Shown: one piece after another, positions 16-21,389 of the stretch
How positions within the stretch are numbered: position 1 is the stretch's first letter
How the letters are laid out: the number at the start of each line of letters is the position of its first letter
Source of the DNA: a virus
Reading direction: 5' to 3' (one strand)
Virus record (IMG/VR): IMGVR_UViG_3300029319_000520
Location: 1-23,703 of that record
Length of the DNA: 23,703 bases
Notes under the pieces: generated by a model
Databases searched by the model: none
Seen by the model: only the letters and a program-made list of their open reading frames with translations
Told to the model about the DNA's origin: nothing
Made by a program: the position numbers and the translations under genes

Positions 16-2888
16 TGTCTAGAGAACTTTTTAGTCAAATAATAGGTCCGCTTAACAAAGGTGTAAATCAACAAGCGGATAGTTTTGTTTTACCTGGATT
101 TGCAAAGGTATTAGAAAATGGTAATTGTGATTTAGTAGAAGGTTTAAAGAAAAGACTAGGAAGTGTACCGTTAAAACGTATAGATACATTAACTAAAAAT
201 TCAGGTGGTAATACTTTAGTAGGTACTATTAAATGGGATGAAGCTTGGTATTTTGTATATAACAGAAGTACAACAGAAAGATTTATTTTAATAATTGCTG
301 ATGATAGTAGAACTGTTACACGCACAGGTAACACAAGTAATAATTCTGCTGTAATTCAATCAGTAAACAGTATGTCAGATCTTTTTATAGGATCTATTGT
401 TACTGGAAATGGTATACCTGCAAATACGACAATTGTTGATATTGACGTTTCTGGATCACGATTAACTTTAAGTAACAACGCTACAGCTACAGCAAATGGA
501 GTCAGCTTAACTATTGAATCTAACTACACTTTTGCAACTGGAGTATCTAACGTAGAACCTATATCTGGAATATTACCTACAATTGTTCCAGTAGAACAAA
601 CTTTTGCAGGTGTAACAAATACAAATTTAGAATATCTTCGTGGATCAGGTAGAGCAAGAGATAGATTTAGAGCTACTTCATTTCAAGATTTTGTTTTTGT
701 AACTAATATTCAAAAAAATACAACATACGACAGCACAGAAACTTTAACAAGATACAACATTGGATATATTAGTAATGCTTACGTTCCTATAAAAGCTCAA
801 ATATGGGTAAAATTAGTCGATTACAATACCAAATATGCTGCCACTATTGAATTAGATAACGGAGCTACAATATCTGCAAATATAACAACTGCAACTTTAG
901 CTTCTGGAACTGCTGTTAGTACACAAACAATTGCAACAGATTTAAAAAATGCTCTTGATACAGCAGATACGTCTAACCATTTAACATTTACTGTTAATGA
1001 TTCTCAAATATTAATAGGATTATCAAGTGCCTCTAGGTCATTTAAAAGTTTTGTGGTTGCTGACGCTAGAGGTAATACACTTATGTCTGGTTTTTCTAGT
1101 CAAATAACAAGTGTTGTTGAACTACCTAATACATCATATGAAGGTTATCAAGTTATAGTAGCCCCAGATGGAGCTGCTGATCAAAGTTCATATTATTTAA
1201 AATTTAACGCAGAAAATACAACAGTTAACGGTACATATGGTAGAGGCACATGGGAAGAAGTAGGAGGATGGGGAACTCCTGGAAAATTAGATGATGATAC
1301 AATGCCTCATTCTTTTGTGTATTACAGAAATGATACAGGTCTTGTAAGATTTACTTTTCAACCTTTTACTGGCAGTAATTATACAGATGGTAGTACAACG
1401 ATAGCAATACCAGGATGGACGCAAAGATTAGCTGGTGATGCCGATGAATTACCTGGTCCTTCTTTTGTTGGTAAACCAGTTAGTGATATAGTATTTTTTA
1501 AAAATCGTTTTGGAATAATAAGCGGTGAAAATATAATACTTAGTGAAGCTGGTGATTATTATAATTTTTGGCAACAATCAGCTTTACAAGTTTTAGATAC
1601 TGATCCAATAGATTTAACTGCTGTTAGTAATGATGTAACGGTATTAAATTATGCTTTACAGCAACAAGATGAATTAGTCTTATTTTCTAATGAAAACCAA
1701 TTTAGACTTTATTCAGGTGATAACGTAACCTTTTCTCCTGAAACAGCCTCTGTAGGACGTATAAGTTCTATAAGCATGGAAACACAGGTTAAACCTCAAC
1801 AGGTAGGTCCACAGGTTATATTCCCTGTTAAAGAAGGTGATTTTACTGGTATTCATACTTTTATAACTACAGATAGAACGGTTGGTATTAACTTAGGTCA
1901 AACTGCTGTTATTACAGAAACTATACCTAAATACATTCCTAAAAATGTAGACTCGTTAGCTGTTAGTCGTACTGATCAATATTTAGTAATTCTTAGTAAA
2001 GATGATCCAGATGCATTGTATGTGTATCAATTTTTTTGGGAAGCATCAGGAGGTTCTTTAACTAATAGACAAAATGCTTGGTCTAAATGGCAATTTACAA
2101 ATAAAACTATACATTGGTGTGAATTTGTTGAAGGTACATTATATAAAATTGCTAAGTATACAGAGGATGGAACTGTTAAATATTATTTAGAAGGGGTAAA
2201 TGCCTCTAGACCACCACAAGAAGAATCAGAATTATTTTTGTTAGATCGTCAATTAGCTAGTTCTATTACTACTGATTTAGGTGCTGTAACATTTAGTTAT
2301 AATGGTGCTACTAATAAAACTACAGTTAATTTACCTTATTACACAGTTAATCCATCTCAATTTGTAGTTATTAAAAAAGATAGCTCAGATGCTAATGAAG
2401 CTAAGAAAAGATGGATAACAGCAGCTTCAGTACCTGCTGGAGTTAATACTTTTGTGTTAGATAGTTTAGGAGATTTTTCTAATAGTTCTTGGATATTTGG
2501 TGAAAAATTTACTTTTACTTTCCAACCACCACAATTAATGCCTTATAGTAAAACAGCTACTGACAACACGTTTATAGGTAATCGTACTGGAAGATTACAG
2601 TTAAGATACTTAGATGTCTATTATAATGATTCTAGGTATTTTACTGTAGAGGTTACTCCTAAATTTAGATCTAAAGTAATTTATGAATTTGATAGAAGAG
2701 ATCCTCTAAATGCAAACATTGTGTTAAGTCAAGTGTCTGATTTTGAAGAATCAAAATTTCGTTCATACATACAAAGTAAAAATGATCAAGTTGTTGTACA
2801 AATTATCAACGACAGCATAGATCAAGCTAAGTTTGTAGCTTTAGAATGGACAGGGTTATACTTTGATAAAGCGAGGAAATATCAGTAA
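15..2888 (+). CDS. Tail tubular protein B / tail nozzle (T7 gp12-like)
   Basis: This is the nozzle protein that forms the distal end of the short tail and gates DNA exit. It is 957 residues long against 794 for T7 gp12. Family landmarks are visible. The N-terminus has the GPLNKGVNQQAD stretch followed by CDLVEGLKKRLGS, like the gp12 start with its GGISQQ motif. The central region has GKPVSDIVFFKNRFG then SGENIILSEAGDYYNF, a close match to the T7 motif GKPISD..FF.NRLG..SGENVILS. DPIDLTAVSNDV and DELVLFSNENQF follow. The extra length is partly a threonine/asparagine-rich beta segment near residues 103-170. The gene starts in a TAATG overlap with the upstream stop and ends in a TAATG overlap with the next start, so translational coupling is likely. 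The family call is firm. Confidence 0.95.
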   Translation: MSRELFSQIIGPLNKGVNQQADSFVLPGFAKVLENGNCDLVEGLKKRLGSVPLKRIDTLTKNSGGNTLVGTIKWDEAWYFVYNRSTTERFILIIADDSRTVTRTGNTSNNSAVIQSVNSMSDLFIGSIVTGNGIPANTTIVDIDVSGSRLTLSNNATATANGVSLTIESNYTFATGVSNVEPISGILPTIVPVEQTFAGVTNTNLEYLRGSGRARDRFRATSFQDFVFVTNIQKNTTYDSTETLTRYNIGYISNAYVPIKAQIWVKLVDYNTKYAATIELDNGATISANITTATLASGTAVSTQTIATDLKNALDTADTSNHLTFTVNDSQILIGLSSASRSFKSFVVADARGNTLMSGFSSQITSVVELPNTSYEGYQVIVAPDGAADQSSYYLKFNAENTTVNGTYGRGTWEEVGGWGTPGKLDDDTMPHSFVYYRNDTGLVRFTFQPFTGSNYTDGSTTIAIPGWTQRLAGDADELPGPSFVGKPVSDIVFFKNRFGIISGENIILSEAGDYYNFWQQSALQVLDTDPIDLTAVSNDVTVLNYALQQQDELVLFSNENQFRLYSGDNVTFSPETASVGRISSISMETQVKPQQVGPQVIFPVKEGDFTGIHTFITTDRTVGINLGQTAVITETIPKYIPKNVDSLAVSRTDQYLVILSKDDPDALYVYQFFWEASGGSLTNRQNAWSKWQFTNKTIHWCEFVEGTLYKIAKYTEDGTVKYYLEGVNASRPPQEESELFLLDRQLASSITTDLGAVTFSYNGATNKTTVNLPYYTVNPSQFVVIKKDSSDANEAKKRWITAASVPAGVNTFVLDSLGDFSNSSWIFGEKFTFTFQPPQLMPYSKTATDNTFIGNRTGRLQLRYLDVYYNDSRYFTVEVTPKFRSKVIYEFDRRDPLNANIVLSQVSDFEESKFRSYIQSKNDQVVVQIINDSIDQAKFVALEWTGLYFDKARKYQ

Positions 2889-3721
2889 TGCAAGCACTTT
2901 CTAGTTTATTTACACCTGAAGCTGGAGGTATAATAAACTTTGGTATGAATATTATGGGTGCAGCAGCTCGTAAATCAGCTACTGCTATAGAATCTTGGCG
3001 TAAATGGGAAGCTGATTCTATAAGAGCTATTAGACAATCAACTGCTACTAATAAAGCTAATTACAGAGCTTATCAAGTTGATATGACCAATTGGTTATCT
3101 AAATCAAAATATACTGCTGAATTAAGACAATATGAAAATCAATTAGCTACTGATCGTGCAAAGTTAAAAACAGAAACTTCTATAAATGCTATGGAAGCTT
3201 TAGGTAAAAAATATGCAGATTTAGATGCAAGATATTACGAAGAAGAAGCATCTGACACTATAAAATTAGAATCTTTAAGAACTAAAGCTATAGCAGATGG
3301 AGTAAAGGTTATTGCTAGTGGTCAAGCTGGTAGAAGTGTAGAGCGTATATCAAATACATATCATCAACAATGGTTACAAAATGCTAGTAATCGTCAAATA
3401 ACTAGAAACTTTAGAATAGGAGATAAATTATCAGCAATGCGAGCTGCTAATGCTGATGCTATGAATAAAACTAATTCAGTTACTTTATATAATCCAAGAC
3501 CTTACAATGATCCTGTTCAACCTTTAGCACCTATGCCAGCAGAAACTTATCTACCTAAACAACCTAAAGTATCAGGTGGTTTAAGCTTAGTAGATGTAGC
3601 TGGAGCTGCTGTAGGAGCTTACAATACATATATGGAAATGCGTCCTCCAGCTATGGGTGGGGGAGGCGGTAATGAATCCCAAGATGAAAGTGGAGGAGAT
3701 GAAGGAGGTGGTGAAGAATGA
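2888..3721 (+). CDS. Internal virion protein (T7 gp14-like)
   Basis: This 277-residue protein lies between the nozzle gene and the two large internal-protein genes, where T7 encodes gp14, the smallest of the ejected core proteins, which inserts in the host outer membrane. An N-terminal GGIINFGMNIMGAAAR stretch could be membrane-active. A long, charged, probably helical middle follows (about residues 35-200, rich in Ala, Lys, Glu and Gln). The C-terminus is low-complexity: a glycine run and then acidic GDEGGGEE. Size and composition suit the family (T7 gp14 is 196 residues), but no diagnostic motif is visible, so the call rests mostly on gene order. It starts in a TAATG overlap and ends in an ATGA overlap with the next gene. 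Confidence 0.8.
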   Translation: MQALSSLFTPEAGGIINFGMNIMGAAARKSATAIESWRKWEADSIRAIRQSTATNKANYRAYQVDMTNWLSKSKYTAELRQYENQLATDRAKLKTETSINAMEALGKKYADLDARYYEEEASDTIKLESLRTKAIADGVKVIASGQAGRSVERISNTYHQQWLQNASNRQITRNFRIGDKLSAMRAANADAMNKTNSVTLYNPRPYNDPVQPLAPMPAETYLPKQPKVSGGLSLVDVAGAAVGAYNTYMEMRPPAMGGGGGNESQDESGGDEGGGEE

Positions 3722-6495
3722 CAAATAGTTTTGGTATAACACCACAAAGACAGTTAAGGGATACATTTGTAAAACCTGAACAAAAAGATAGAGCACAACC
3801 TGCAACTCCTGAAATGACACCTCAACGTAGAGGTGGACAGTTATTAGATTTTCAAAATTTTGTACCTGATCAAGCTTTAGAACAAAGAGTACAATCTATA
3901 GAAAACTTTGTAAATCAAGCTAATAAATTAACAGGTACTTTAGTAAAACAAGAATCAGAAAAACAAGTAGCAGATGCAGAAAGGTTATTTGATAAAGTAG
4001 CTCAATATCAATTAGATAGTTTAGAAATAGGTGAAGTAGCTAAACAGTTAAGAAAGAAAGGTGAAAATAATTTAGCTGATGAGGTAGTAAGAAGTAATCC
4101 TTGGTTTAGATTTGGTTGGTTACAACAACAAGCTTCTTTTGCAGGTCAAGATACTATTTATAGAACTTATGATTTTGTAAATGCTAATATGGGAACTTTG
4201 TCGCAGATTGAAGATCCGACAGAAGTATCAAGAAAAGTAAATGAATATGCAACTAAATATTATGAGAAAAATTATCCTGGTATTCCGAATCAAATGTATT
4301 CGGCAAATGTTGCACCTATATTATCAAAAGGTTTACCTAGATTACTTGAAGGTATAAGAGATGAACATAGAAAATATCAATTAAATTTTTTAACACAAAA
4401 AGCATTACAAAGTCAATATTCTGCTGTTTCTGAATGGACTAGAAATACAAATGATTATAAAAGTGTAAAAGGTTTATTAGAATCAAGAATACTTTTAAAT
4501 AGTAATAATGATTTATTAGTAAATAAATTATTAGCTGCTAAACGAGATGCTATAAATAGTGGTTTAACTTATGACCAATATCGTAGTAGTGTTGAAATAC
4601 CTTTTTTAAAGAAATTTCCTATTGATTTAAATAACGATGGTATAAGCGATATAGAAGATAAAGGTTTATTAACTGAATTTAAAAGAGCACTTGCAAATGT
4701 AGAATTAGATGGTTTACCTGGTCAAAAATTATTAGATCAAATAGATCCAGAAACAAATCTTACTTTTAGAAGTTTAATTACAAATGCATCTAATCAAGCT
4801 ATACAAAATGAAGTAAGAATGAATACTGCCTTACAGCAATCAATTACTTTAGATAATAAAAGACTTAAAGATGATGGACAATTACATCTAAGAATGATAA
4901 CAGAGGGTTTAGATACTAGTGAAGCTTATTTAGCTAAAAGAGAGTTTCTTGACCAAGTAATAGAAGCTCAGAAATCAGGTGGAACAGTAAAAATGCATAT
5001 ATACAACACAGAAACAGGAGTTGTAGAATTAACAGATGTACCTATACCTAAATACCTTGATATAGAAGATTTTGAATCAAAGGTTATAGATAAACAGTTA
5101 GGAGCAACAGTAGATATAGATACTTACAATGCTGATTTAGCAAGAATAACTACTATAGGAGCACAAAATCCTAATGCAGATTTTTCAGATATTTTATCAA
5201 ACTATGAAAAAGGTGGTAAACAATATAATAAATTAGCTGAAAAAATACAAAAAATTAAAACTAATTTTGCAGCTAAAGATTGGAATCCTAGTTTAAAACA
5301 ATTAGGTACAAAAATGGAAAAAATAGCTAAAACAATAAATGAAGAATCTTTAGAAAATTATTTTAAAGAAAATTCAATTACAAGTAAAAGACAAAGAAAA
5401 GTAATTACAAATAATTTTAAAAATGCTTATAGCAATTATCAAAAATCAGAAGCATATGATTTAGCTATTAAATATGGAAGAAATAGAATAGCCGATGCAA
5501 CAGCAGAAGAACTTCAAGATCCTACTTGGTGGAACTCTGTTGCAGAAGATTTATCTAAACATTTACAATCAGACAGCTATTTTACAGATCCTAATCAATT
5601 TACAGGTGCTAATAATATTGATTCTGAAAAAACTTTAATGGTATATCAAAGAAACGATAATGGTGCAGTAGTAGGAAATGTAGATCGTGTATATACTAAC
5701 GAAGATTTTTTATCTGCAAATTCTAAATTAGTTAAAAGTGAAGCTTTAACAACTATGTTTAAAAGTGAACCAATGATAAATACAAGTACAGTAGAAAATT
5801 TATTATCAGCTTTATATACAGATAAAAATAGTTTTACACCTACAGCAGTTAACGATCTTAATGAAGGATTTAAATTAGCTAAAAGATTAAATGAAGGTTT
5901 AACTTTAGAAAACTTTTTAAAAGGTCAATTTAGTGATGGAGTTTTTCAAGTTGATTCTGGAGATTTAGAATTTAACTCACAAAAATTTAATCAATTAAGA
6001 AATAAATTAATGAATGTTACTGTTAATCGTTCAACAATAATAAAAGATCATGGTGAAACTACTACTGGTGGTAATTCAGGTATAAGTTTTCACATTGAAT
6101 CTAAAACATCTGGAGCTAAAAAACCTTTATCAATAAATATTCCTGTAAAAATGCAGATTACTAATGTAGCTTACGATGAAGGTAATTTAGGTCATTATTC
6201 AGAAGCAGTTGTACTTAATAATGGTAATGGTTTAAAAAAAGGAGATATTATAAGGTTATCTCATGCTCAAAACTTTAAAGTAAAAGTTGGTGAAGTATAT
6301 CAACCAGGACAAGTTTGGGGTACTCAACACTCACAATCTAGTTATTCGCCTAGTATAGATGGAGGTACTGGATTTCATTTATTTCTTGATATAAGAAGAA
6401 AAAATGAATATTTTCCTCAATACCAAGATCCTTTACCACAACACGTTACTAATGAAATTTTTAACAAATTTCTTAAAAATCGCTTATCACCATAA
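3718..6495 (+). CDS. Internal virion protein (T7 gp15-like) with a C-terminal M23/LytM-like domain
   Basis: This 925-residue protein occupies the gp15 position, the core protein that helps build the ejection conduit across the periplasm (T7 gp15 is 747 residues). Most of it looks helical and charged. The last ~140 residues differ, being beta-rich. They contain GDIIRLSHAQNFKVKVGEVY, then PGQVWGTQ, then GGTGFHLFLDI. This follows the order of M23/LytM endopeptidases, in which an LSH motif and a VKVGQ.V..G..IG stretch precede a terminal G.HLHFE motif. His849 and His887 match ligand or catalytic histidines, but the last HxH reads HLF and no clear HxxxD ligand pair is visible near SGISFHIE. I infer a degenerate or structurally repurposed peptidase domain. 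The start overlaps the previous stop (ATGA) and the end overlaps the next start (TAATG). Confidence 0.85.
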   Translation: MTNSFGITPQRQLRDTFVKPEQKDRAQPATPEMTPQRRGGQLLDFQNFVPDQALEQRVQSIENFVNQANKLTGTLVKQESEKQVADAERLFDKVAQYQLDSLEIGEVAKQLRKKGENNLADEVVRSNPWFRFGWLQQQASFAGQDTIYRTYDFVNANMGTLSQIEDPTEVSRKVNEYATKYYEKNYPGIPNQMYSANVAPILSKGLPRLLEGIRDEHRKYQLNFLTQKALQSQYSAVSEWTRNTNDYKSVKGLLESRILLNSNNDLLVNKLLAAKRDAINSGLTYDQYRSSVEIPFLKKFPIDLNNDGISDIEDKGLLTEFKRALANVELDGLPGQKLLDQIDPETNLTFRSLITNASNQAIQNEVRMNTALQQSITLDNKRLKDDGQLHLRMITEGLDTSEAYLAKREFLDQVIEAQKSGGTVKMHIYNTETGVVELTDVPIPKYLDIEDFESKVIDKQLGATVDIDTYNADLARITTIGAQNPNADFSDILSNYEKGGKQYNKLAEKIQKIKTNFAAKDWNPSLKQLGTKMEKIAKTINEESLENYFKENSITSKRQRKVITNNFKNAYSNYQKSEAYDLAIKYGRNRIADATAEELQDPTWWNSVAEDLSKHLQSDSYFTDPNQFTGANNIDSEKTLMVYQRNDNGAVVGNVDRVYTNEDFLSANSKLVKSEALTTMFKSEPMINTSTVENLLSALYTDKNSFTPTAVNDLNEGFKLAKRLNEGLTLENFLKGQFSDGVFQVDSGDLEFNSQKFNQLRNKLMNVTVNRSTIIKDHGETTTGGNSGISFHIESKTSGAKKPLSINIPVKMQITNVAYDEGNLGHYSEAVVLNNGNGLKKGDIIRLSHAQNFKVKVGEVYQPGQVWGTQHSQSSYSPSIDGGTGFHLFLDIRRKNEYFPQYQDPLPQHVTNEIFNKFLKNRLSP

Positions 6496-9400
6496 TGCCT
6501 TATAAAATTTTTCCAGATGGTTCTTATAAATATGGAGATACTCTTGATGAAGCTCAAGAGCCTTTTGAAGGTTCTAATGTACAAATAGAGCAAGAATCAA
6601 CTGTACCAACAGGAGAACAAGAAATTGTAAAAGAAGAAAAAGAAGAAGAGAAAAAACCTAGTTGGGTTAGTGAGACTTTAAAAACTTTAGGATCAATGAT
6701 TACACATATACCAGAAACGGTAACTGTGGCTGGTCAAAAATTAGCACAATCAACTCCTGAGTTTGTATTACAAGGTTTTGCATCTGGAGCTGCTGGAGGT
6801 TATGTTGATCCTAATCTTATGCTTATACAAAAAGCACAAAGAGAAGGTAAGCCAGTAAAAGAAGTTCTTGAAAAACAATTAGAAGAAGCAGAAAAAGGTC
6901 AAATAGCTGCAAGATTTAATATTTCACCTCCTACAGAAAATGGTGAATTTTATAAATTAGGAATATCAAAAGATATACCAGTTTTAGGTGCTTTTTCAGA
7001 TGAAGGTAAAATATACAAAGCATTTGAACCAGAAACAGAAACAGGTGAATTTATATCTGATTTAGGTCAACTTATAGTTTTATCTTCTATTATGCCTCAA
7101 GGTAGTCAAGTCTTTGGCTATGGTACTACTACAAAAACAGCAGCTTTAAAAGCTTTTGCTAAACCTAACAAAAAACATTTATTAGGATTAGGTTTAAAAA
7201 TATTTAAAGGTATAGGAGCTGAACTACCTCAAGATTTTTTAGAAGAACTATATTTATTTGCACCTCCAGATCCTACTGATGATCAAGAAGCTGAAATAAA
7301 TAGAATACTAAATTTAAATGATTCAGAAGTTAAATCAGCAGCTATAGATTTATTACTTTCAGATACAGATGCTGAAGCTGAATATTATGCAAATTATGGT
7401 GAAAACCTTAAAGGAGGTATGGCAGGTGCATTTGCTTTTCGTGGTATATTAGCTTCAGTAAATAATTTATTTAGATTACACAAAGCTAAAAAACTTAAAA
7501 ATTTAAAATTAACAGAAGCTGATGTAGATAAAGCATTAAATAAACCTATTAATGATGTAAAAGTAAAAGTAGAGGAAGCACAAACAAAAGGTTTAGAAGA
7601 ACAAAGAGAAAATGAATTATACGAATATAATTCTACATTTAACGGTATATATCAAGAATCATTACCTAATTTAAATAAAAAGATAACAGGTTTACATCAA
7701 GGTGATTTAGCTATACAAAAAGCATTAGAAGAGGGAGAAACAGCAGCTACTAAAGCTACAGAAATTAGTGATGCAAATGTAAAAGTTACAGATGAATTAA
7801 AACGTATAAATAAACTTTTAAAAGCAAGACAAGGTTCTATAAGAGATATAAATAGAGCAGCTAGAAATAATCCTGAATATTTTAATAGCCTTACTAATAA
7901 AAGACGTTTTAATCGTTATACAAAAGATTTAGATAAATATAAGAAACGTATAGATGAATTAAAAGGTGAATCAGAACAAAGACTTATAGATTTAGAAGAA
8001 CCAACATCACAAGGTCGTATAGCTTCAGCACAGTTTGATTCTTTACAAGCTAGTAGAGCTTTTGCAGTAAATGAATTTATAAATGAATTACAACCTTTAT
8101 TACAAAAATTAGATAGTTTACATACAGCAAGACTTAAAAATGGTGTAAATATATCTACTTTAGATGATGATCCTTTTTATCAATCATATAAAAATGTAAA
8201 ACAACTTTACGATAATTACGTTGCATTAGGTGGTCAAGGTAAAGCTGCTGGAGCAGATTTAGATCCAGGTTTAGAAAATACAAGGCAAGCTTTAGAAGTT
8301 AAATTATTAAACGGTATACAAGATGAATTTCAAAAATTAGAAGAATATGGAACTGTAGGTAATCTTGAAATAGATCCTAAAGCTTTAGAAATGGCTGCTG
8401 AAGAAGTAGGTCAACCTATGCCTAAAGCTAAAACTGATACAAAAGATGCTAAGAAAGGTGATGATAGTAGTGATGATCCTTGGTATAACAATACAGATCA
8501 AATGCCATTAAAACTTGATGAAGATGGCAGAGTAACAATAGATCCTGATGCTACTACTACAACTGGTACTACAACACAAGCACCTTTAAATAAAGAAGCA
8601 AGATTAAGACAAGCTCAAGTACGTTTAGGTTTAGGCGATTCTTATGCTAACTTACAACAGCAAAAAGGTGATGCAATAACAGATCTTGATTTAGATAAGT
8701 CTTTAGATGATTATGCAAAAAAAGAAGCTTTTTATGCTATGCAAGAACAGAAAGCTATACAAAATGGAACTAAAGTTCCTGATTCATGGGATAGGTTATC
8801 TTTAAGATCATTAGAAAGATCTGTAGGTAGATTTCCTGGATACAACCAAAGAAAATTAGCTTTGTTAGATGCTGTTAAAAATTTAAAAGGTCAACCAGAT
8901 GAAGTTACAAGTAGATTTTTAAAAAGATCATATCAATGGGCGGGTAAACTAGCTAACGCAGAAGCTGAGTTTGAAGATTTATATACATTGTTAGAAACAA
9001 GAAGATTAGCTAGAGGTAAAGCTATGGCAGGTGTAGAAGATGCCATGTTTGAAACAGGTGTTTTACCTTTACAGATTGGTGTAACAAGTTCACGTTTATA
9101 TAAAATTATGGGTGCTATTAGAGATCAAGCATCTAATTTAAATGCATCTGAATTACAAACATACAGAGCTTTAGCAGCTCAAGAAGCCTTAATTTTATAT
9201 CAATCAGTTGGTGATTTTATGCAGCTTCGTAACTTAGCTGGTAGTTTCTTAGCTAGTTTAAGAGGCACATTTATGGCAAAGATTGCTAATAGATTTGGTA
9301 AAGCTCAAGCTAAAGTTAGACAAGGTAAAAAGGCTGATGAATTATTTGAAGAGTTTGCAGATAATGCAAATACTTTAACTGTTAAGTTAGCAGAAGATGC

Positions 9401-12233
9401 TAAAGATAAATTACCTACATATATAGGTTTAGATTCTAATGCTAAAAAAGTAGAAGAAATTTTAAATAAATTTACTGATCCTGATTTAACACCTACTGAT
9501 TCTGATTTAAATATATTTAATAAAATTACAAGTCAATTAACAGTAGCTGGTCTTAATCCTGAATCATTAGGTTCTATAGCTATGACAGGCGATAGAATAC
9601 TTTATACACAAATGATTTCTGCTGGTTTATCTAACATATCAACTCAAACAGGATTTTTACCACAAACATTTATCTATAGTGCAGCTTACGATTTAAATCA
9701 ATTACTAACAGGTAAAATAAATGCAATGTGGAATAAAGTTCCTTGGATTGCAGATAAAGAAGCGTTAGCATCAGCAGTTAGAAATGAAAGAATAGCTAAA
9801 CAAATGCTTCGTACTAAAACAGAAGTGTTTGGAGAAGTATTAGGTTATATGTATAAAGCAAGGCAGTTTGATCGTAGTATTATTACTGACGCTGCACAAT
9901 CTATAGAAGATGCAGGTAAATTTAGAAATTCAAGAGTTAAAGATCCTTTTAGAGAACAAGAAAAATTAGATTTATTAGGTGATAAATCAAGAGTACAATT
10001 ACCTGATAATGGTTTAGGTAGAGCTATACAAAAAATAGTTCCTCCTGAAAAATTACAACAAGTTAAAAATAATTTATTTGTAGATTTACTTGAATTACAC
10101 GATAAATTCTTTTTAGGTGATGCTTATCAAGGTTTAGGTAAAAGTAGAGCAGGTAAATTTGCTCAATTTATGTATAAAGCTAGTCCTTCAGGTTTTGTAG
10201 ATTCAGCTTTAGATAAATTAACTGGAGGTAGAATTAGTCCTCGTAAATCTAAATTAACTAGTGGTGAAAGAGTTGGAGGTACATTACCATTATTTGCATC
10301 TGAAACTAGTACAGAATTAATTGGTGGTATTCATGCTTTTGCCTTTGCTAAAGCTAAAGCTCGTATTATGGTTGAAGATATGTTAGATGGTAAAGGAGTA
10401 CCAAAATTTAAAAAAGGAACTCCTGAATTTGAAGCTGAAGTAGAAAGAATATATAGAGATGACATGATGGAACCTATAAGAGTAGGTATAGGTGAAAAAG
10501 CAGAAGATGTTTCATTTGCTATTGCTGATGAAGAAGCTATGAAAGTAGCTTTAAGTTTTGACATGATGATGGAACCAGGAGATGATATTTTTGGTAAAAC
10601 AAGTAAATTTTTACAAGCTGGTGGAAGAGATGAAGATTTACAATTATATAAAGCTGTACTATTTCCTTATGTAAGAGCACCATTTAACGCTTTTCAATTC
10701 CATTTATATCATTCACAATCTTTCTTAGGAACACCTATACCTGCTGGAGCTGTATTTGAAGGTATTGGAGCAGCTACTAATGTTGTTAGACAGTTTCAAA
10801 AAGTTTTAGATGGTAAACCTGGAAGTGTAGATTTAAGTCAAAAAGTTTTAGGATTTGAAAGTAAATTATTTAACAAAGATCCTAAAGTAAGAGCTGATGC
10901 TAGGTCAGCTTTAACACTAGCTACTACATTTAATGCTGGATTATTAGCGTTAATTATAAATGGAGATTTAGAAATTACAGGTGGTCAGCAAACAAACTTT
11001 AGAGAAGCTCAAGCTGCAAATATACCTACATATTCAGTTAAAATTTTAGGTCGTTGGGTTCCTTATAGATTCTTACCATTTATAGGTGAACTACTAGCTT
11101 ATGGAGCAAACTATAGAGATTTTGCTAGGAAAAATACTACATTTATGAATCAAAATGTTGTTGGTACAGCCATTGTTGCTACAGCTCAAACATTTTTAGA
11201 TGCACCAGCTATTGCAGGTTTAGATACTCTTATTTCTGCTATGAAAAAACCAGAAAAAGCTGAACAATTATTATTACAATATTTTGAAAAAATAGGTGGT
11301 ATTAGATACACAGCATTAAGAAGTGGATTATTTAGGCACATAGTACCTTTAGTAACTGATATACCAGCATATGAAGCTCGTCCAGTAGTTAGTGCTCAAC
11401 GACCAGGAATAATAGGTAAACCAAAAGAATTTACTTATGAACAAGTTGTAAATGAAGATTTAACATGGGGAGAAGGATGGGCTGATTTTTTTGATGGTGC
11501 TAAAGGTATAACTGAATTACCACTTAGATTTCTTCAAAATACTGCAAGAAATGTTGGTTTAATGCCTTTAGTAGAAGCTTTAGATGAATTTGAAATTCTT
11601 AGTGATGATGTAAAACAAGGTGATTTTAGGCAAGCACATTGGTATAAAGAAGGTGATATTACTTATGTAAGTCCTGATCAAAAAACATTATTACAAGGTA
11701 TTATTGGTCGTAACTTCCCTGTACCTGATACAGCAGATATAGTTGATCGTGAACTATTTTTACACGGTATAGTTCCTCCTACTCAAGTATTTAGAAAATA
11801 TGGAATCGTTGCTAATGAAACTATGGTTAATAGATTTAGAAGATTTTTAGGTACTGAATACAGAGATGAAGGTAAAAGTGTATATCAAATGTTTGAAGAA
11901 ATCATAACAAACAAAGAACCTATTCCAGGATATACAGGTTTATACTATAAAGATTTAGTAACAACAGATCAAAATAGTTTAACTTTTGGAGGTAATTTAG
12001 CAGATTTAGCAGATAAGAAAGAAATATTTCCTACAGATGAAATAACCAAAAGAACTGTGTTAATGGAATTGAGATCAGATATAATTAGTAGAGCAGCAGA
12101 AATTTATCTGCGTGGTTATTACGAAACTTTGGATGATTCAGGTAATATGGTAAAAGAACCGATTGAATATGCAGCCCCACAAGATGCTAATGAGCAATAC
12201 TTTAAATGGTGGCAAAACAAAATGGAAATTTAA
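6495..12233 (+). CDS. Internal core / ejection protein (T7 gp16-like)
   Basis: This is the largest gene in the window, encoding 1912 residues. It sits between the gp15-like and fibre genes, as T7 gene 16 does. T7 gp16 (1318 residues) is ejected and spans the inner membrane during DNA entry. Here the N-terminus is acidic and low-complexity (EEKEEEKK near residue 50), followed by amphipathic helices and a long coiled-coil-like part around residues 340-650. The C-terminal third has hydrophobic stretches, for example around residues 1470-1590 (TFNAGLLALIING, then RWVPYRFLPFIGELLAYG), which suit a membrane-penetrating ejection protein. I found no soluble lytic transglycosylase motif like the one at the N-terminus of T7 gp16. 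Assignment rests on size, position and the C-terminal character. The next gene begins three bases after the stop. Confidence 0.85.
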   Translation: MPYKIFPDGSYKYGDTLDEAQEPFEGSNVQIEQESTVPTGEQEIVKEEKEEEKKPSWVSETLKTLGSMITHIPETVTVAGQKLAQSTPEFVLQGFASGAAGGYVDPNLMLIQKAQREGKPVKEVLEKQLEEAEKGQIAARFNISPPTENGEFYKLGISKDIPVLGAFSDEGKIYKAFEPETETGEFISDLGQLIVLSSIMPQGSQVFGYGTTTKTAALKAFAKPNKKHLLGLGLKIFKGIGAELPQDFLEELYLFAPPDPTDDQEAEINRILNLNDSEVKSAAIDLLLSDTDAEAEYYANYGENLKGGMAGAFAFRGILASVNNLFRLHKAKKLKNLKLTEADVDKALNKPINDVKVKVEEAQTKGLEEQRENELYEYNSTFNGIYQESLPNLNKKITGLHQGDLAIQKALEEGETAATKATEISDANVKVTDELKRINKLLKARQGSIRDINRAARNNPEYFNSLTNKRRFNRYTKDLDKYKKRIDELKGESEQRLIDLEEPTSQGRIASAQFDSLQASRAFAVNEFINELQPLLQKLDSLHTARLKNGVNISTLDDDPFYQSYKNVKQLYDNYVALGGQGKAAGADLDPGLENTRQALEVKLLNGIQDEFQKLEEYGTVGNLEIDPKALEMAAEEVGQPMPKAKTDTKDAKKGDDSSDDPWYNNTDQMPLKLDEDGRVTIDPDATTTTGTTTQAPLNKEARLRQAQVRLGLGDSYANLQQQKGDAITDLDLDKSLDDYAKKEAFYAMQEQKAIQNGTKVPDSWDRLSLRSLERSVGRFPGYNQRKLALLDAVKNLKGQPDEVTSRFLKRSYQWAGKLANAEAEFEDLYTLLETRRLARGKAMAGVEDAMFETGVLPLQIGVTSSRLYKIMGAIRDQASNLNASELQTYRALAAQEALILYQSVGDFMQLRNLAGSFLASLRGTFMAKIANRFGKAQAKVRQGKKADELFEEFADNANTLTVKLAEDAKDKLPTYIGLDSNAKKVEEILNKFTDPDLTPTDSDLNIFNKITSQLTVAGLNPESLGSIAMTGDRILYTQMISAGLSNISTQTGFLPQTFIYSAAYDLNQLLTGKINAMWNKVPWIADKEALASAVRNERIAKQMLRTKTEVFGEVLGYMYKARQFDRSIITDAAQSIEDAGKFRNSRVKDPFREQEKLDLLGDKSRVQLPDNGLGRAIQKIVPPEKLQQVKNNLFVDLLELHDKFFLGDAYQGLGKSRAGKFAQFMYKASPSGFVDSALDKLTGGRISPRKSKLTSGERVGGTLPLFASETSTELIGGIHAFAFAKAKARIMVEDMLDGKGVPKFKKGTPEFEAEVERIYRDDMMEPIRVGIGEKAEDVSFAIADEEAMKVALSFDMMMEPGDDIFGKTSKFLQAGGRDEDLQLYKAVLFPYVRAPFNAFQFHLYHSQSFLGTPIPAGAVFEGIGAATNVVRQFQKVLDGKPGSVDLSQKVLGFESKLFNKDPKVRADARSALTLATTFNAGLLALIINGDLEITGGQQTNFREAQAANIPTYSVKILGRWVPYRFLPFIGELLAYGANYRDFARKNTTFMNQNVVGTAIVATAQTFLDAPAIAGLDTLISAMKKPEKAEQLLLQYFEKIGGIRYTALRSGLFRHIVPLVTDIPAYEARPVVSAQRPGIIGKPKEFTYEQVVNEDLTWGEGWADFFDGAKGITELPLRFLQNTARNVGLMPLVEALDEFEILSDDVKQGDFRQAHWYKEGDITYVSPDQKTLLQGIIGRNFPVPDTADIVDRELFLHGIVPPTQVFRKYGIVANETMVNRFRRFLGTEYRDEGKSVYQMFEEIITNKEPIPGYTGLYYKDLVTTDQNSLTFGGNLADLADKKEIFPTDEITKRTVLMELRSDIISRAAEIYLRGYYETLDDSGNMVKEPIEYAAPQDANEQYFKWWQNKMEI

Positions 12234-12236
12234 CTA

Positions 12237-15200
12237 ATGGCATTTGCATCAAGAACATATACACCAGGCTCTTCTACAACAACTTTTGCTCTGACAACTT
12301 CAGGTGGAGATCCTATTGGTTATATACGGCAATCAGATATTAGTGTAACTGTTAATGGTAGTGTTCAAGCAGCAAGTTCATATTCTTTTTCAGGAACTAG
12401 TACTGTTGAGCAACCTAATGGTGGCAACATTGTTTTAAATGCAGGTGTAACGGGAACTGTTACGTTAACTAGAGTTACGTCAATTCAAAATGCAACGGTT
12501 ACCTACACAGCAGGTTCTACATTAACTGCTGCTGACCTTAACAATGCAGATAACCAAATTAGATTTGGTCTACAAGAATTTTCTGATACGTTTGCTGCTT
12601 TAAATACTGGTACTGGAGATTTAGAAGCTCTAGGTGGCTTTATAGGTAGTAATGAGGCTTGGGCATCTAATAATACTAAAGCTGCTACTACAGGGGCTAT
12701 TGATGCCAGAGTAGACAGTAAAATTGATACAGCTCTTACTACTGATGTGTCAGGTGGTGATGGAGTAACGATTGTTGATAATAATCCTGGATCTGGTCAA
12801 ATAAGAGTTGATTTAGATGCTGATATAGCCACTCTTAGAAATATGCAATCAGGAGCTGCTAGTGCTCTTGCTGCGTTAACATCAACTGAATTACAAGTAT
12901 TAGATGGAGCAACACTTACAACTACTGAATTAAATTATGTAGATGGTGTTACAAGTGCTATCCAAACTCAATTAGATAATAAACAGCCTATAGATTCTGA
13001 GCTTACTACTTTAGCTACAATGGCTTCAGGAACAGCAAACGCATTAAAAGATCTTACTCAAGCTGAAGTAGAAATATTAGATGGAGCTACTGTAACTACT
13101 GCTGAATTAAATGTTTTAGATGGTATTCCAGCAGGTCTTACAGCAACAGAACTTGGATATGTAGATGGTGTAACTTCTGCAATTCAAACTCAAATTGACG
13201 GTAAACAACCTTTAGATGCTGAGTTAACAGAACTTGCAACAATGTCTAGCGGAACTGCTAGTGCATTAGCTGATTTAACACAAACAGAAGTTCAAATTTT
13301 AGATGGTGTTACTGCTACAACTGCTGAAATTAATTACGTTGATGGAGTTACATCTAATGTACAAACTCAACTTAATGCTAAACAACCTCTTGCTGCACCT
13401 CTAACAACAATGTCCAGTATGCAATCTGGAACTGCATCTGTACTTGCAAGTGGAACAGCTTTAAGTGCCACAACAACTGAGCTAAACCAGCTAGACGGTA
13501 AAACTCTTGGAGAAACTACTTTAACTACTAATAGTAATACAGCAATACCAACTTCTAAAGCTGTAGCTGACCATGTAGCTGGAGCTGTAACAGCAGTTGG
13601 TGGTTTTATAGCAATAGCTAACGAAGTAGCTTTCCCTAACTCTCAACCAGCAGCAAACGTGATAGTAAGTGTTTCTGATGCAGGTGGTTTATCTATTAAT
13701 AGTTCTGGAGTAGTTTCTGGAGCTACTACCGTAGGAGGTACTAGTGTAACAATAACTGGTGTACCTGCTGCGTTGTATGGTGGAGCTGCTGGTAATGCTA
13801 ATCCCAATGTTTTAGCTGCTGGAGAAGGTTTACAGTTAACATCTAGTGGATCAAATCATAGTTATGCATATCATAAAATCTTAGCTACAGAAACAGATGT
13901 AGCTCAACTTTCAGGTCAAATAAATGATTTTAATGAAAGATATAGATATGGAGCACAGAATCCTACAACAGGTTTACACGCTGGAGATTTATTCTTTAAT
14001 ACAGGAACTGGAAAAATGTTGGTATATGATACCACAGGTACTCCAGGATGGGAAGAAGTACAAAGTATAGGTAATTTCTTTATATCTAGTTTTACAGAAT
14101 CTTTTGATGGTAGTCGTATAGATTTTACATTATCTAATGCTCCAAGTAGTGCTCAACAAGTCATATTAAGTATTAATGGTGTAATTCAAAAACCAAACTC
14201 AGGTACTGCTAGACCTTCTGAAGGTTTTTCATTAAACGGTGCTACTGTACAATTACCAACAGGATCTGGACCTGCTAATGGTACTGATTATTTTGTAATC
14301 GTAATGGGTTCTACAGTTAATATTGGAACTCCAAGTAACAACACAGTAACTGAAGCCATACTGCAAAACGGGTCAGTTACTAACGATAAAGTAAGTGCTA
14401 ATGCAGCAATAGCTGGTTCTAAAATATCTCCTAACTTTGGCTCTCAAGCGGTTACTGGTGGTCATAGTACTTTTCAAAACTTAACTGCATTAGGTTTGAC
14501 TTTAAGTCATACAAACGCAGCAATAAATTTTACTGATTCAAATAACAATCCAGATTACTCAGTTATAGTTGACGGAGGTGTTTTTGATCTTAACTCTGTA
14601 ACACCAGCAGCAAATATAATCAAGATTAATACTGATGGACACATTGATGTTTCAACAAATGTAGATTTTGCGGCTGGTATTGATGTAACAGGAGCTACGA
14701 CTCTTACCAGAAGTAATGATAATGCAACAACTCTCGTAGTAACTAATAACGGAACTACTGGTGGACATGGTCTACAAATTAGTTCTGGTGGTACTGGTGG
14801 TGGATCAAGATTACTTGACATAGAATCACATAATCAAGCAACTGCTAAAACTAGATTTCAAGTTACCGCAGATGGTCATGTAATAATACCAACCGACTCA
14901 CCTAGTTCTAACGAGGGTAGATTACAAATTGGTGTTAGTCAAGATTTCCAAGTTTACCATAATGCAACTAATACTTATCTAGACAACAAAACTGGACATT
15001 TATATATAAGAAATCACGAGACTAATAGTAATAGTATCTACGCAACGCTAAAAGAAGGTCAAGAGTTTGGAGTATTTAAAAATGGTACTTCTGAATGGTT
15101 ATTCAAAGGTGCTGCTGGAGGTTCGTTTGAAGCATGGCATGATGGCACTAAGAAATTTGAAACTACAAGTTATGGTGCATTAGTTTCTGGAAATATACAA

Positions 15201-15428
15201 TCAAACACTATTTACCCTAGTGCTAACAATTCTTACGATTTGGGTACATCATCTACACGTTGGGCAAACATTTTCACCAATGACCTTAACTTATCTAACG
15301 AAGGTTCATCTAATGACGTTGACGGAACTTGGGGAAGCTATACTATACAAGAAGGTGCAGAGGATCTATTTTTGATTAACAGACGCAATGGTAAAAAGTA
15401 TAAATTTAATTTAACGGAGGTATCATAA
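12237..15428 (+). CDS. Tail fibre with T7 gp17-type N-terminal anchor
   Basis: This 1063-residue protein has the phage T7 tail-fibre N-terminal domain in residues 1-120 (SRTYTPGSSTTTFALT, VTVNGS, TYTAGSTLTAADLNNADNQ), which docks the fibre to the tail. Residues 203-430 are a tandem repeat with recurring ELNYVDGVTS, IQTQLDNKQP and SGTASAL motifs, typical of a trimeric shaft. Near residues 640-690 comes a beta-rich FILSINGVIQKP-like part. Residues 715-825 hold a module that is repeated in the gene at 16440. The C-terminus (YDLGTSSTRWANIFTNDLNLSNEG) resembles the region ahead of many fibre tips, and no chaperone-type end is obvious. The ATG lies three bases after the previous stop. The end overlaps the next gene by TAATG. 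It probably binds the host surface together with the two genes downstream. Confidence 0.93.
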   Translation: MAFASRTYTPGSSTTTFALTTSGGDPIGYIRQSDISVTVNGSVQAASSYSFSGTSTVEQPNGGNIVLNAGVTGTVTLTRVTSIQNATVTYTAGSTLTAADLNNADNQIRFGLQEFSDTFAALNTGTGDLEALGGFIGSNEAWASNNTKAATTGAIDARVDSKIDTALTTDVSGGDGVTIVDNNPGSGQIRVDLDADIATLRNMQSGAASALAALTSTELQVLDGATLTTTELNYVDGVTSAIQTQLDNKQPIDSELTTLATMASGTANALKDLTQAEVEILDGATVTTAELNVLDGIPAGLTATELGYVDGVTSAIQTQIDGKQPLDAELTELATMSSGTASALADLTQTEVQILDGVTATTAEINYVDGVTSNVQTQLNAKQPLAAPLTTMSSMQSGTASVLASGTALSATTTELNQLDGKTLGETTLTTNSNTAIPTSKAVADHVAGAVTAVGGFIAIANEVAFPNSQPAANVIVSVSDAGGLSINSSGVVSGATTVGGTSVTITGVPAALYGGAAGNANPNVLAAGEGLQLTSSGSNHSYAYHKILATETDVAQLSGQINDFNERYRYGAQNPTTGLHAGDLFFNTGTGKMLVYDTTGTPGWEEVQSIGNFFISSFTESFDGSRIDFTLSNAPSSAQQVILSINGVIQKPNSGTARPSEGFSLNGATVQLPTGSGPANGTDYFVIVMGSTVNIGTPSNNTVTEAILQNGSVTNDKVSANAAIAGSKISPNFGSQAVTGGHSTFQNLTALGLTLSHTNAAINFTDSNNNPDYSVIVDGGVFDLNSVTPAANIIKINTDGHIDVSTNVDFAAGIDVTGATTLTRSNDNATTLVVTNNGTTGGHGLQISSGGTGGGSRLLDIESHNQATAKTRFQVTADGHVIIPTDSPSSNEGRLQIGVSQDFQVYHNATNTYLDNKTGHLYIRNHETNSNSIYATLKEGQEFGVFKNGTSEWLFKGAAGGSFEAWHDGTKKFETTSYGALVSGNIQSNTIYPSANNSYDLGTSSTRWANIFTNDLNLSNEGSSNDVDGTWGSYTIQEGAEDLFLINRRNGKKYKFNLTEVS
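12843..13500 (+). repeat. Tandem repeat array in the fibre shaft
   Basis: Four units begin at methionines at nucleotides 12843, 13020, 13242 and 13419 (MQSGAAS, MASGTAN, MSSGTAS, MQSGTAS; residues 203, 262, 336 and 395). The first three are 59, 74 and 59 residues long, and the fourth is partial. Each complete unit runs from a SGTASAL stretch through E-(V/L)-LDGAT, TTAELNYVDGVTS and QTQLDxKQP. The longer unit carries an extra GLTATELGYVDG copy. The repeats are diverged at the DNA level, so they are old or kept by protein-level selection. Confidence 0.85.
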
Positions 15429-19444: not shown

Positions 19445-19686
19445 GGTACTGTTGCATCACTTACAGTATAAGTTGTATCGGACGCAGTAATAGATGCACT
19501 AGGAGTTACGTTAGTACCTTCCCATGTGTTCACAGTAGATCCATATACCTGGATTTGGTGAGTACGGGTTATTGTCTGAGTAGTATTTGTAGTTGAGTTA
19601 CTACTACCTGTAGTGAATGCAGGTGTTATTTGGTTAGCTAATACTGCATTAGGTATTAGTAATGCTATTAATAATAATTTTTTCAT
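19333..19686 (-). CDS. Small exported Thr/Ser-rich protein, third gene of the minus-strand operon
   Basis: The 117-residue product has a textbook Sec signal peptide (MKKLLLIALLIPNAVLA, cleavage after residue 17). No lipobox cysteine is present, so it should be released to the periplasm or beyond and not anchored as a lipoprotein. The mature part is very rich in Thr, Ser and Asn (TTGSSNSTTNTTQTITRTH), predicted beta, and has no cysteine. The start ATG overlaps the previous stop (ATGA at 19683-19686). The 3' end runs 112 bases into the next gene. The length and signal recall a protein I remember from marine cyanophages, found beside the larger exported protein. No enzymatic motif is visible. 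Confidence 0.85.
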   Translation of the reverse strand: MKKLLLIALLIPNAVLANQITPAFTTGSSNSTTNTTQTITRTHQIQVYGSTVNTWEGTNVTPSASITASDTTYTVSDATVPWSLNITTRAAGLVEQHDISENITTTSTITSLSVFSQ

Positions 19687-19922
19687 TGTTTAGTTTCCCT
19701 TGGTTTAGAACTGCCACCATTTCTACCGTTACCAATAGACAAGCCTAGACTCGCAGTCGATGCTGAAAATACACTTGCTATAAAAGTCGGGTCAAAATCC
19801 AAAATCTTTTTACCATCAGGCTTTTCGTAGTATGAAACGGTTAATAAAAGTCCAGACCACAATAAAATTGTGATTTTTACTGCATCATGCAGCCACTCTC
19901 TTTTATTTTCTTCTTGTTCCAT
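19683..19922 (-). CDS. Two-membrane-segment small protein (holin-like candidate), second gene of the minus-strand operon
   Basis: This is a 79-residue protein with a charged N-terminus (MEQEENKREWLHDAVK). A first hydrophobic segment lies at about 14-32 (ITILLWSGLLLTVSYY), then a charged linker (EKPDGKKILDFD), then a second, weaker hydrophobic segment at about 46-64 (TFIASVFSASTASLGLSIG). The tail is polar, with a basic residue cluster. Size and two-segment topology suit a small class II-type holin, and the position beside two secreted proteins fits an envelope task. Many small phage membrane proteins look the same, so holin is only a suggestion. The start lies inside the preceding gene's last 20 bases, and the stop overlaps the next ATG. 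Confidence 0.75.
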   Translation of the reverse strand: MEQEENKREWLHDAVKITILLWSGLLLTVSYYEKPDGKKILDFDPTFIASVFSASTASLGLSIGNGRNGGSSKPRETKQ

Positions 19923-21032: not shown

Positions 21033-21078
21033 AACCCTGGCATGACACATTCACCTCATGTTGGGGTTTTTGTGTTTT
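21033..21078 (+). terminator. Rho-independent terminator between the small terminase and HNH genes
   Basis: AACCCTGGCATGA (21033-21045) pairs along its whole length with TCATGTTGGGGTT (21056-21068). This gives a 13-pair stem with three central G-T wobbles and a ten-base loop, CACATTCACC. The stem runs directly into TTTTTGTGTTTT. This is the cleanest terminator in the window. The HNH ATG at 21096 lies only 18 bases past it. Downstream terminase expression therefore needs read-through, a phage polymerase that ignores the hairpin, or processing. Confidence 0.8.
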
Positions 21079-21095
21079 CTACGCCAGAGGATATT

Positions 21096-21389
21096 ATGGC
21101 AAATTTACAAGCCCTACAATCACAAGATGCTGTTAAACAATGGAGACAATCAATTAAAGAAGCTTTTAATTTTCAATGTGCTTACTGTGGTACAAAAAGT
21201 TTTAACTTAACACTAGATCATGTACAACCTAAAACTAAAGGAGGAGAAAACTTGTCAACTAATATTGTTCCAGCTTGTATAGCTTGTAATCAAGCAAAAG
21301 GTAGTCATAATTGGAAAGTGTGGTATCGTAAACATACTCGTTATTGTATAGAAAGAGAACAATTTATTAACAACTGGATTAGTGCCTGA
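21096..21389 (+). CDS. HNH endonuclease between the terminase subunits
   Basis: This 97-residue protein has a zinc-knuckle HNH fold: CAYC (Cys28 and Cys31), LDHVQP (Asp41, His42), GGENLSTNIVPAC (Asn56, Cys61) and CNQAKG (Cys64, Asn65). That is the complete DH...N...N pattern, so the enzyme should be active. HNH proteins beside terminases can assist cleavage at genome ends; others are free-standing homing enzymes. Context favours a packaging helper, by inference. I chose ATG at 21096, preceded by AGAGG, over an upstream ATG at 21042, because the latter would put the terminator inside the gene. Its TGA at 21387-21389 overlaps the large terminase GTG start. Confidence 0.88.
   Translation: MANLQALQSQDAVKQWRQSIKEAFNFQCAYCGTKSFNLTLDHVQPKTKGGENLSTNIVPACIACNQAKGSHNWKVWYRKHTRYCIEREQFINNWISA

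Follow-up and report, generated by a model that had tools for sequence, protein, structure and literature searches.

A predicted M23/LytM-like domain with altered zinc motifs at the C-terminus of a putative gp15-position ejection protein in a P-RSP2-type cyanophage

How short-tailed phages get their ejection tube across the cell wall is broadly established for just one kind of system, the T7-like one, which has a cutting enzyme; in T7 the N-terminus of gp16 is a transglycosylase. The locus described here, part of a 23.7-kb virus record (23,703 nucleotides; hereafter the window, meaning the whole stretch of DNA analysed), raises the question of what a conserved wall-enzyme fold, apparently without its metal site, does on an ejection protein: can binding replace cutting, or is a hydrolase borrowed from the host? 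In the genes considered here the window is nearest to Prochlorococcus phage P-RSP2 (98.7% in gp15), which belongs to an outlier clade of marine cyanopodoviruses alongside MPP-A, MPP-B and MPP-C (PMC9860041).

Gene order and the gp15-position protein

The relevant genes of the window are arranged as follows:

15 to 2888, + strand: nozzle (gp12-like tail tube B), the upstream neighbour and synteny anchor (PF25675, E 1.6e-149).
2888 to 3721, + strand: gp14-position protein, 277 aa, assigned by position and size, with a weak spanin-like PHROG match (E 0.0009).
3718 to 6495, + strand: gp15-position internal (ejection) protein, an ORF of 925 aa assigned by order and size.
6495 to 12233, + strand: giant gp16-position protein, 1912 aa, in which a wall-hydrolase domain was not recognised.
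12237 to 15428, + strand: T7-type tail fibre, downstream of the gp16-position gene.

The order nozzle, gp14, gp15, gp16, tail fibre agrees with that of annotated relatives, and the gp15 and gp16 labels are provisional assignments based on gene order and size. It is known that gp15 proteins diverge fast. Outside its C-terminal domain, homology of the window protein to the gp15-position proteins of related phages was undetected by BLASTP or hhalign, in keeping with a review in which gp15 homologues are mostly recognised through size and synteny (PMC8954989). The search for wider relatives of the window gp15 and gp16 proteins turned up close P-RSP2-group sequences alone, and tblastn of the 1912-aa protein on the phage collection at E 0.1 gave no relatives outside P-RSP2. 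Elsewhere in the window, an HNH endonuclease gene (21042-21389) immediately precedes that of the terminase large subunit; a DUF6450 gene (E 3e-19) is located on the minus strand at 19683-19922.

The original prediction, made from the sequence of the window, held that the gp16-like protein seems to lack a transglycosylase. This is consistent with Pfam, PHROG, NCBIfam and custom HMM searches, in which neither a wall hydrolase nor a transglycosylase was recognised in the gp16-position protein; residues 424-555 gave a weak PHROG match (E 6e-4) to a family of unknown function. Across the 23.7 kb window, Pfam, NCBIfam and HMMs of five cyanophage hydrolase types picked out no further wall hydrolase; this search covered part of the genome, and divergent enzymes could escape it.

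An M23/LytM-like C-terminal domain and its active site

Searches of Pfam, PHROGs, NCBIfam and the PDB with the full-length gp15-position protein gave no informative match. The original prediction had placed the M23 endopeptidase order of motifs in the C-terminal part (6064-6400, corresponding to residues 783-895 of the 925-aa protein), and the strings LSH (847-849), VKVGEVYQPGQVWG and GGTGFHLFLDI are all present. Two features of this region are referred to below:

6064 to 6432, + strand: M23/LytM-like domain, residues about 783-905 (Pfam, PHROG, HMM versus decoys, hhalign, AlphaFold and Foldseek).
6439 to 6486, + strand: predicted C-terminal helix past the domain, residues 908-923 (numbered 138-153 in the second AlphaFold model, whose first residue is 771 of the protein).

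When the C-terminal 166 aa were searched against Pfam, Peptidase_M23 ranked first for the window and for two relatives, L002 and L003 (E 0.019-0.031). The window match (PF01551; residues about 819-897) has an E value of 0.019 and 15.6 bits, below the curated cut-off of 28.7; the family named by the original prediction is on top at relaxed thresholds. For a 236-aa piece, the sole PHROGs match (E 0.049) was to a metallo-endopeptidase family. The C-terminal 165 aa scored 15.1 and 15.5 bits with two M23 profiles from which the window sequence had been left out, compared with top decoy scores of 8.5 and 11.8 bits, respectively, among 5000 composition shuffles and 1447 phage-ORF pieces; one shuffle reached 11.9 bits in an earlier 5000-shuffle run with the first profile. 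The likeness of the window C-terminus to M23 exceeds chance. Alignment by hhalign with intact M23 domains of phages and E. coli (probability 81.5%, P 1.1e-5) paired RLSHA with RFAHL, then GFHLFLDI with SYHLHWEV. All of the sequence scores for the domain lie below curated thresholds, and a three-sequence profile searched against PDB sequences returned chance-like CBL matches only (E above 1).

The first AlphaFold model was made from three near-identical sequences, with outside M23 sequences absent from the alignment, and has a mean pLDDT of 49, with core blocks at 58-82 and the best blocks at 70-82. M23/LytM structures and the cyanophage A4 pre-ejectosome top its Foldseek PDB list (best E 2.3e-4), and its viral matches include cyanophage internal proteins. 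The second model, for which 20 divergent phage M23-type sequences were added, reached a pLDDT of 68.3 and a pTM of 0.66, but given the M23 sequences in its input it does not count as independent evidence; its PDB ranking is led by 9k2v_A (cyanophage A4 pre-ejectosome, E 1.0e-4), followed by lysostaphin and the EnvC LytM domain, with the LytM domains of EnvC, AmiB-bound EnvC and DipM among its nearest folds. For both models, the head of the PDB list is taken by M23/LytM entries or by the A4 protein with its M23 domain.

We consider it very likely that residues ~783-905 adopt an M23-like fold, with moderate model confidence. It is correspondingly improbable that the region is some other beta-rich domain resembling M23 by chance; such a reading could draw on the sub-threshold single-sequence scores, the uninformative three-sequence search and the low pLDDT of the unaided model, but it sits poorly with the first rank given to M23-type families by both Pfam and PHROGs and by the model made without outside M23 sequences, and with a domain score above those of the 5000 shuffles and 1447 decoys.

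The zinc ligands of M23 enzymes are provided by the Hx3D motif and the second His of HxH, whilst the first HxH His, and a His ~30 residues upstream of it, are catalytic and are not zinc ligands (PMC9662197). The corresponding positions in the window domain are:

6088 to 6108, + strand: residues 791-797 (FHIESKT), where alignment to intact M23 domains places the Hx3D zinc motif.
6262 to 6264, + strand: His849, matching the non-ligand catalytic His of Y-A-H-L (His260 of LytM; profile alignment RLSHA / RFAHL).
6376 to 6378, + strand: His887, matching the first, catalytic and non-ligand His of HxH (GFHLFLDI versus SYHLHWEV / GPHIHIEH).
6382 to 6384, + strand: Phe889, occupying the place of the second HxH His, so that the third zinc ligand is lost (alignments; Phe also in L002 and L003).

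Judged from these alignments, the Hx3D and HxH zinc motifs of Peptidase M23 are both missing in the window domain, in agreement with the proposal that HxH has become HLF and that HxxxD is not evident. The HxH position reads H887-L-F889; depending on the register, the Hx3D site, which lies in the least well modelled and worst aligned stretch of the domain, reads F791/S795, H792/K796 or I793/T797, with Asp in none. At most one zinc ligand, His792, could be left. The original prediction placed His849 (nt 6262) and His887 (nt 6376) correctly; the His849 column is invariant in a 23-sequence alignment, and it sits 38 residues ahead of His887, versus the ~30 expected in M23. As aligned, the surviving histidines His849 and His887 are exactly the non-ligand catalytic pair of M23. 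The motif-site residues are identical across the window, L002 and L003, as are His792, 826, 849, 871 and 887.

Every M23 enzyme is zinc-dependent according to an M23 review (PMC9662197), and since the zinc site appears to be lost, the domain is probably not a working M23 endopeptidase. If catalysis has been abandoned, however, one would not expect the two catalytic histidines to persist. The domain could still be an enzyme that relies on different chemistry or on a reorganised metal site, whose ligands might include His792, His849 and His887, with His871 or Asp891 as possible additions. The identity of the five histidines among the three sequences, the retained pair at the catalytic positions and the weakly modelled and aligned Hx3D region, which leaves room for a shifted ligand set (H792 and another His), would all suit such an arrangement, as would the fixed non-canonical residue set of a second altered M23 family (described below; 42 of 42 loci), an example of strong conservation at an altered M23 site. 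However, with Phe at the second HxH His, Asp missing from the Hx3D region and zinc dependence described throughout the family, we regard a rearranged active site as quite unlikely. We know of no M23 enzyme that works with such an altered site.

Selection on the domain and its possible role

The domain was overlooked in annotation on account of a one-base difference in the P-RSP2 reference:

6234 to 6240, + strand: seven consecutive A, where the deposited P-RSP2 genome has six (DNA alignment, annotation).

The annotated P-RSP2 CDS (HQ332139; L001:14001-16774) ends early, inside the domain, because of the six A in place of the seven in the window, and the DNA downstream is near-identical to the window. 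The A6/A7 difference is probably a sequencing error, a frameshift at a hotspot also being possible.

For residues 783-925 dN/dS is 0.171 (13.5 non-synonymous and 18.5 synonymous changes), a value drawn from about 32 changes between two haplotypes in one clade. The zinc-less M23-like domain is under purifying selection, and this ratio, together with the identical motif residues in the relatives, makes it look repurposed rather than decayed. Of the suggestion that the wall activity was 'lost or altered', 'altered' fits, whereas loss in the sense of decay is at odds with the dN/dS of 0.17 and with the identical motif residues. Residues 300-540 of the same protein change fast, with a dN/dS of about 0.8 versus about 0.2-0.3 on the flanks.

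The reading that we favour, and consider reasonably probable, is that of an M23/LytM-fold domain without a zinc site which is not a working endopeptidase and has been kept for non-cutting contact with the wall around the ejection tube. By analogy with T7 and A4, and from the predicted fold, the gp15-position protein would leave the virion alongside the other ejection proteins and bring the M23-like domain into the periplasm, where this domain may touch or orient peptidoglycan around the tube, or some partner in the wall; to judge from its motifs it would do so without cutting, and it would have been retained because its groove and surface are still useful. Zinc-less M23 domains with non-enzymatic roles are found in bacteria, namely EnvC and NlpD (PMC9662197).

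The same bacterial proteins suggest a further possibility, in which the domain is an EnvC/NlpD-like activator that switches on a host or phage wall hydrolase, which in turn breaches the wall so that ejection can proceed. Activation of hydrolases by degenerate M23 domains is known (PMC9662197), the LytM domains of EnvC, AmiB-bound EnvC and DipM are among the nearest folds, and a hydrolase of the phage's own was unrecognised within the window. Yet Foldseek similarity does not tell active and inactive M23 domains apart, and the bacterial version also requires recruitment regions and a cognate amidase; an activator role is, in our view, distinctly unlikely.

Wall-hydrolase modules and a second altered M23 family in related cyanophages

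Hydrolases of several kinds occur on the gp15-position proteins of related cyanophages. SLT_3 is present in P-SCSP1 and S-CBP3, SLT with an altered M23 domain in S-CBP4, a glucosaminidase upstream of an intact C-terminal M23 domain in S-SRP01, and a weak phage lysozyme match in Syn5. The S-CBP1 gp15 (L037:3001-5964) carries a glucosaminidase and a truncated M23 domain, which starts normally (HGID) before the protein stops after FLHGNSV; the missing HxH half was not found in the three forward frames downstream. In S-CBP2, gene 39 has a phage lysozyme and the altered M23 domain is in the following gene. These consecutive lysozyme-ending and altered-M23 genes (L038:7848-13635) are arranged as if the gp15-position function were split. 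Intact M23 domains are found on the gp15-position proteins of A-4L, Pf-WMP4 and PP, and the annotated endopeptidase of TR020 has the same intact motifs; A4L_28, encoded between the gp14-position and gp16-position genes, contains an intact M23 domain (E 1.3e-21), and PDB 9k2v holds ten copies of this internal protein. Pfam recognised no wall-hydrolase modules on the gp15-position proteins of P-SSP7, P-SSP10, P-SCSP2 and the S31-C1 phage. The gp15-position protein of S-SRP02 (L011:14482-17388) is annotated as an amidase and has a C-terminal GAYQF lysozyme-like motif, with no Pfam hydrolase match.

Given these modules, wall activity on gp15 rather than gp16 fits the cyanophage group. The proposal that wall activity had moved to another ejected protein with a different chemistry is supported to the extent that hydrolases of different chemistry sit on related gp15-position proteins, but relocation from gp16 to gp15 is not new, since K1E/K1-5 had already led to the proposal that the two exchange hydrolases (PMC8954989). 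A move followed by a loss is the order we infer. Zinc ligands are intact in A-4L, Pf-WMP4, PP, TR020 and S-SRP01, answering whether they persist elsewhere among related phages; within the P-RSP2 group, a member with an intact zinc site was not found. The novel element is that the domain of the P-RSP2 lineage is zinc-less, the fold, position and exchange idea being known.

The recurrence of hydrolase modules at this position also bears on a purely structural role, in which a leftover fold packs the pre-ejection core or seals the tube with no wall contact. The C-terminal location of the domain on a tube-type protein is compatible with this, as is the great reshaping of the C-terminal part of T7 gp15 upon ejection (PMC8954989), but the modules suggest wall contact and the catalytic histidines have been kept; we think a solely structural role unlikely, if not negligibly so, and continue to favour non-cutting wall contact.

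The second altered family, of S-CBP4/S-CBP2 type, is widespread in cyanophage-type internal proteins; a search of IMG/VR with the S-CBP4 domain found 123 relatives, of which 80 were kept (L041-L120; e.g. L041:5001-5435). Where the normal zinc and HxH motifs stand, its members have GQPGxD, YxHL and QGGTGxVxSxDGTIASIDF, and the pattern Q..D, YxH, TIAS(I/V)DF was present in 42 of 42 sampled loci. All 24 full ORFs examined match Peptidase_M23, and at most 10 of the 24 also have SLT, glucosaminidase or SLT_3. The domain may be a binding module or possess a new active site.

Membership of the window domain in this family, for which a G..G...ESK string and an apparent common Phe at HxH might speak, was rejected: the register is wrong and profile scores favour intact M23. 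At the S-CBP4-type motifs the window reads GNSGIS and DGGTGFHLF, and hhalign gives 8.8%. The M23 site thus seems to have been altered at least twice, on the basis of profile scores rather than a tree. More speculatively, and we would not presume it to be the case, the cyanophage gp15-position protein could be a hot spot at which M23 was converted at least twice independently (in the P-RSP2 lineage and the S-CBP4-type family) to yield a conserved pseudo-enzyme with altered zinc sites, which either leads the ejection tube through peptidoglycan by binding or works by means of a new active site. The zinc-less state is unusual on an ejection protein, and with its description a domain that had stayed hidden in this group of ocean phages gains a testable function.

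Comparison with known systems

In gene order, and in role by position, the window shares the arrangement of T7 gp15/gp16. To our knowledge, no M23 domain has been described on either T7 protein. The closest parallels in gene position and M23-type fold are A4L_28 (the 'internal protein/peptidase' of Anabaena phage A-4L), Pf-WMP4 gp33, PP gp27 and the TR020 endopeptidase, which at 994-1058 aa are near the 925 aa of the window protein. In these four, Hx3D, AHL/AHN and HxH are intact and the domain is mid-protein (about 610-755), whereas in the window it is C-terminal with the zinc motifs apparently missing; homology elsewhere in the protein was undetected. The gp15-position proteins of the cyanopodovirus S-SRP01 (Autographiviridae) and of its relatives (L121-L137) also carry an M23 domain, which in S-SRP01 is C-terminal, as in the window protein; unlike the window domain, theirs has an intact active site (HEGND or HTGID, AHL or GHL, PHxH), and in S-SRP01, but not in the window protein, a glucosaminidase domain precedes it.

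The S-CBP4/S-CBP2-type domain resembles that of the window in being M23-derived, in having lost HxH and in being C-terminal in most sampled ORFs, but it has kept the Asp ligand and has its own fixed motifs (GQPGxD, YxHL, QGGTG, DGTIASIDF), the window domain being nearer to intact M23. Wall activity of another kind is present on a gp15 homologue in K1E/K1-5, in which gp35 has lysozyme activity (PMC8954989). EnvC and NlpD have, like the window domain (for which the fold is seen at model level), an M23 fold without a complete zinc site; along with DipM they are bacterial, cell-exported regulators of hydrolases with defined amidase partners, whereas the window domain is carried by a predicted phage ejection protein.
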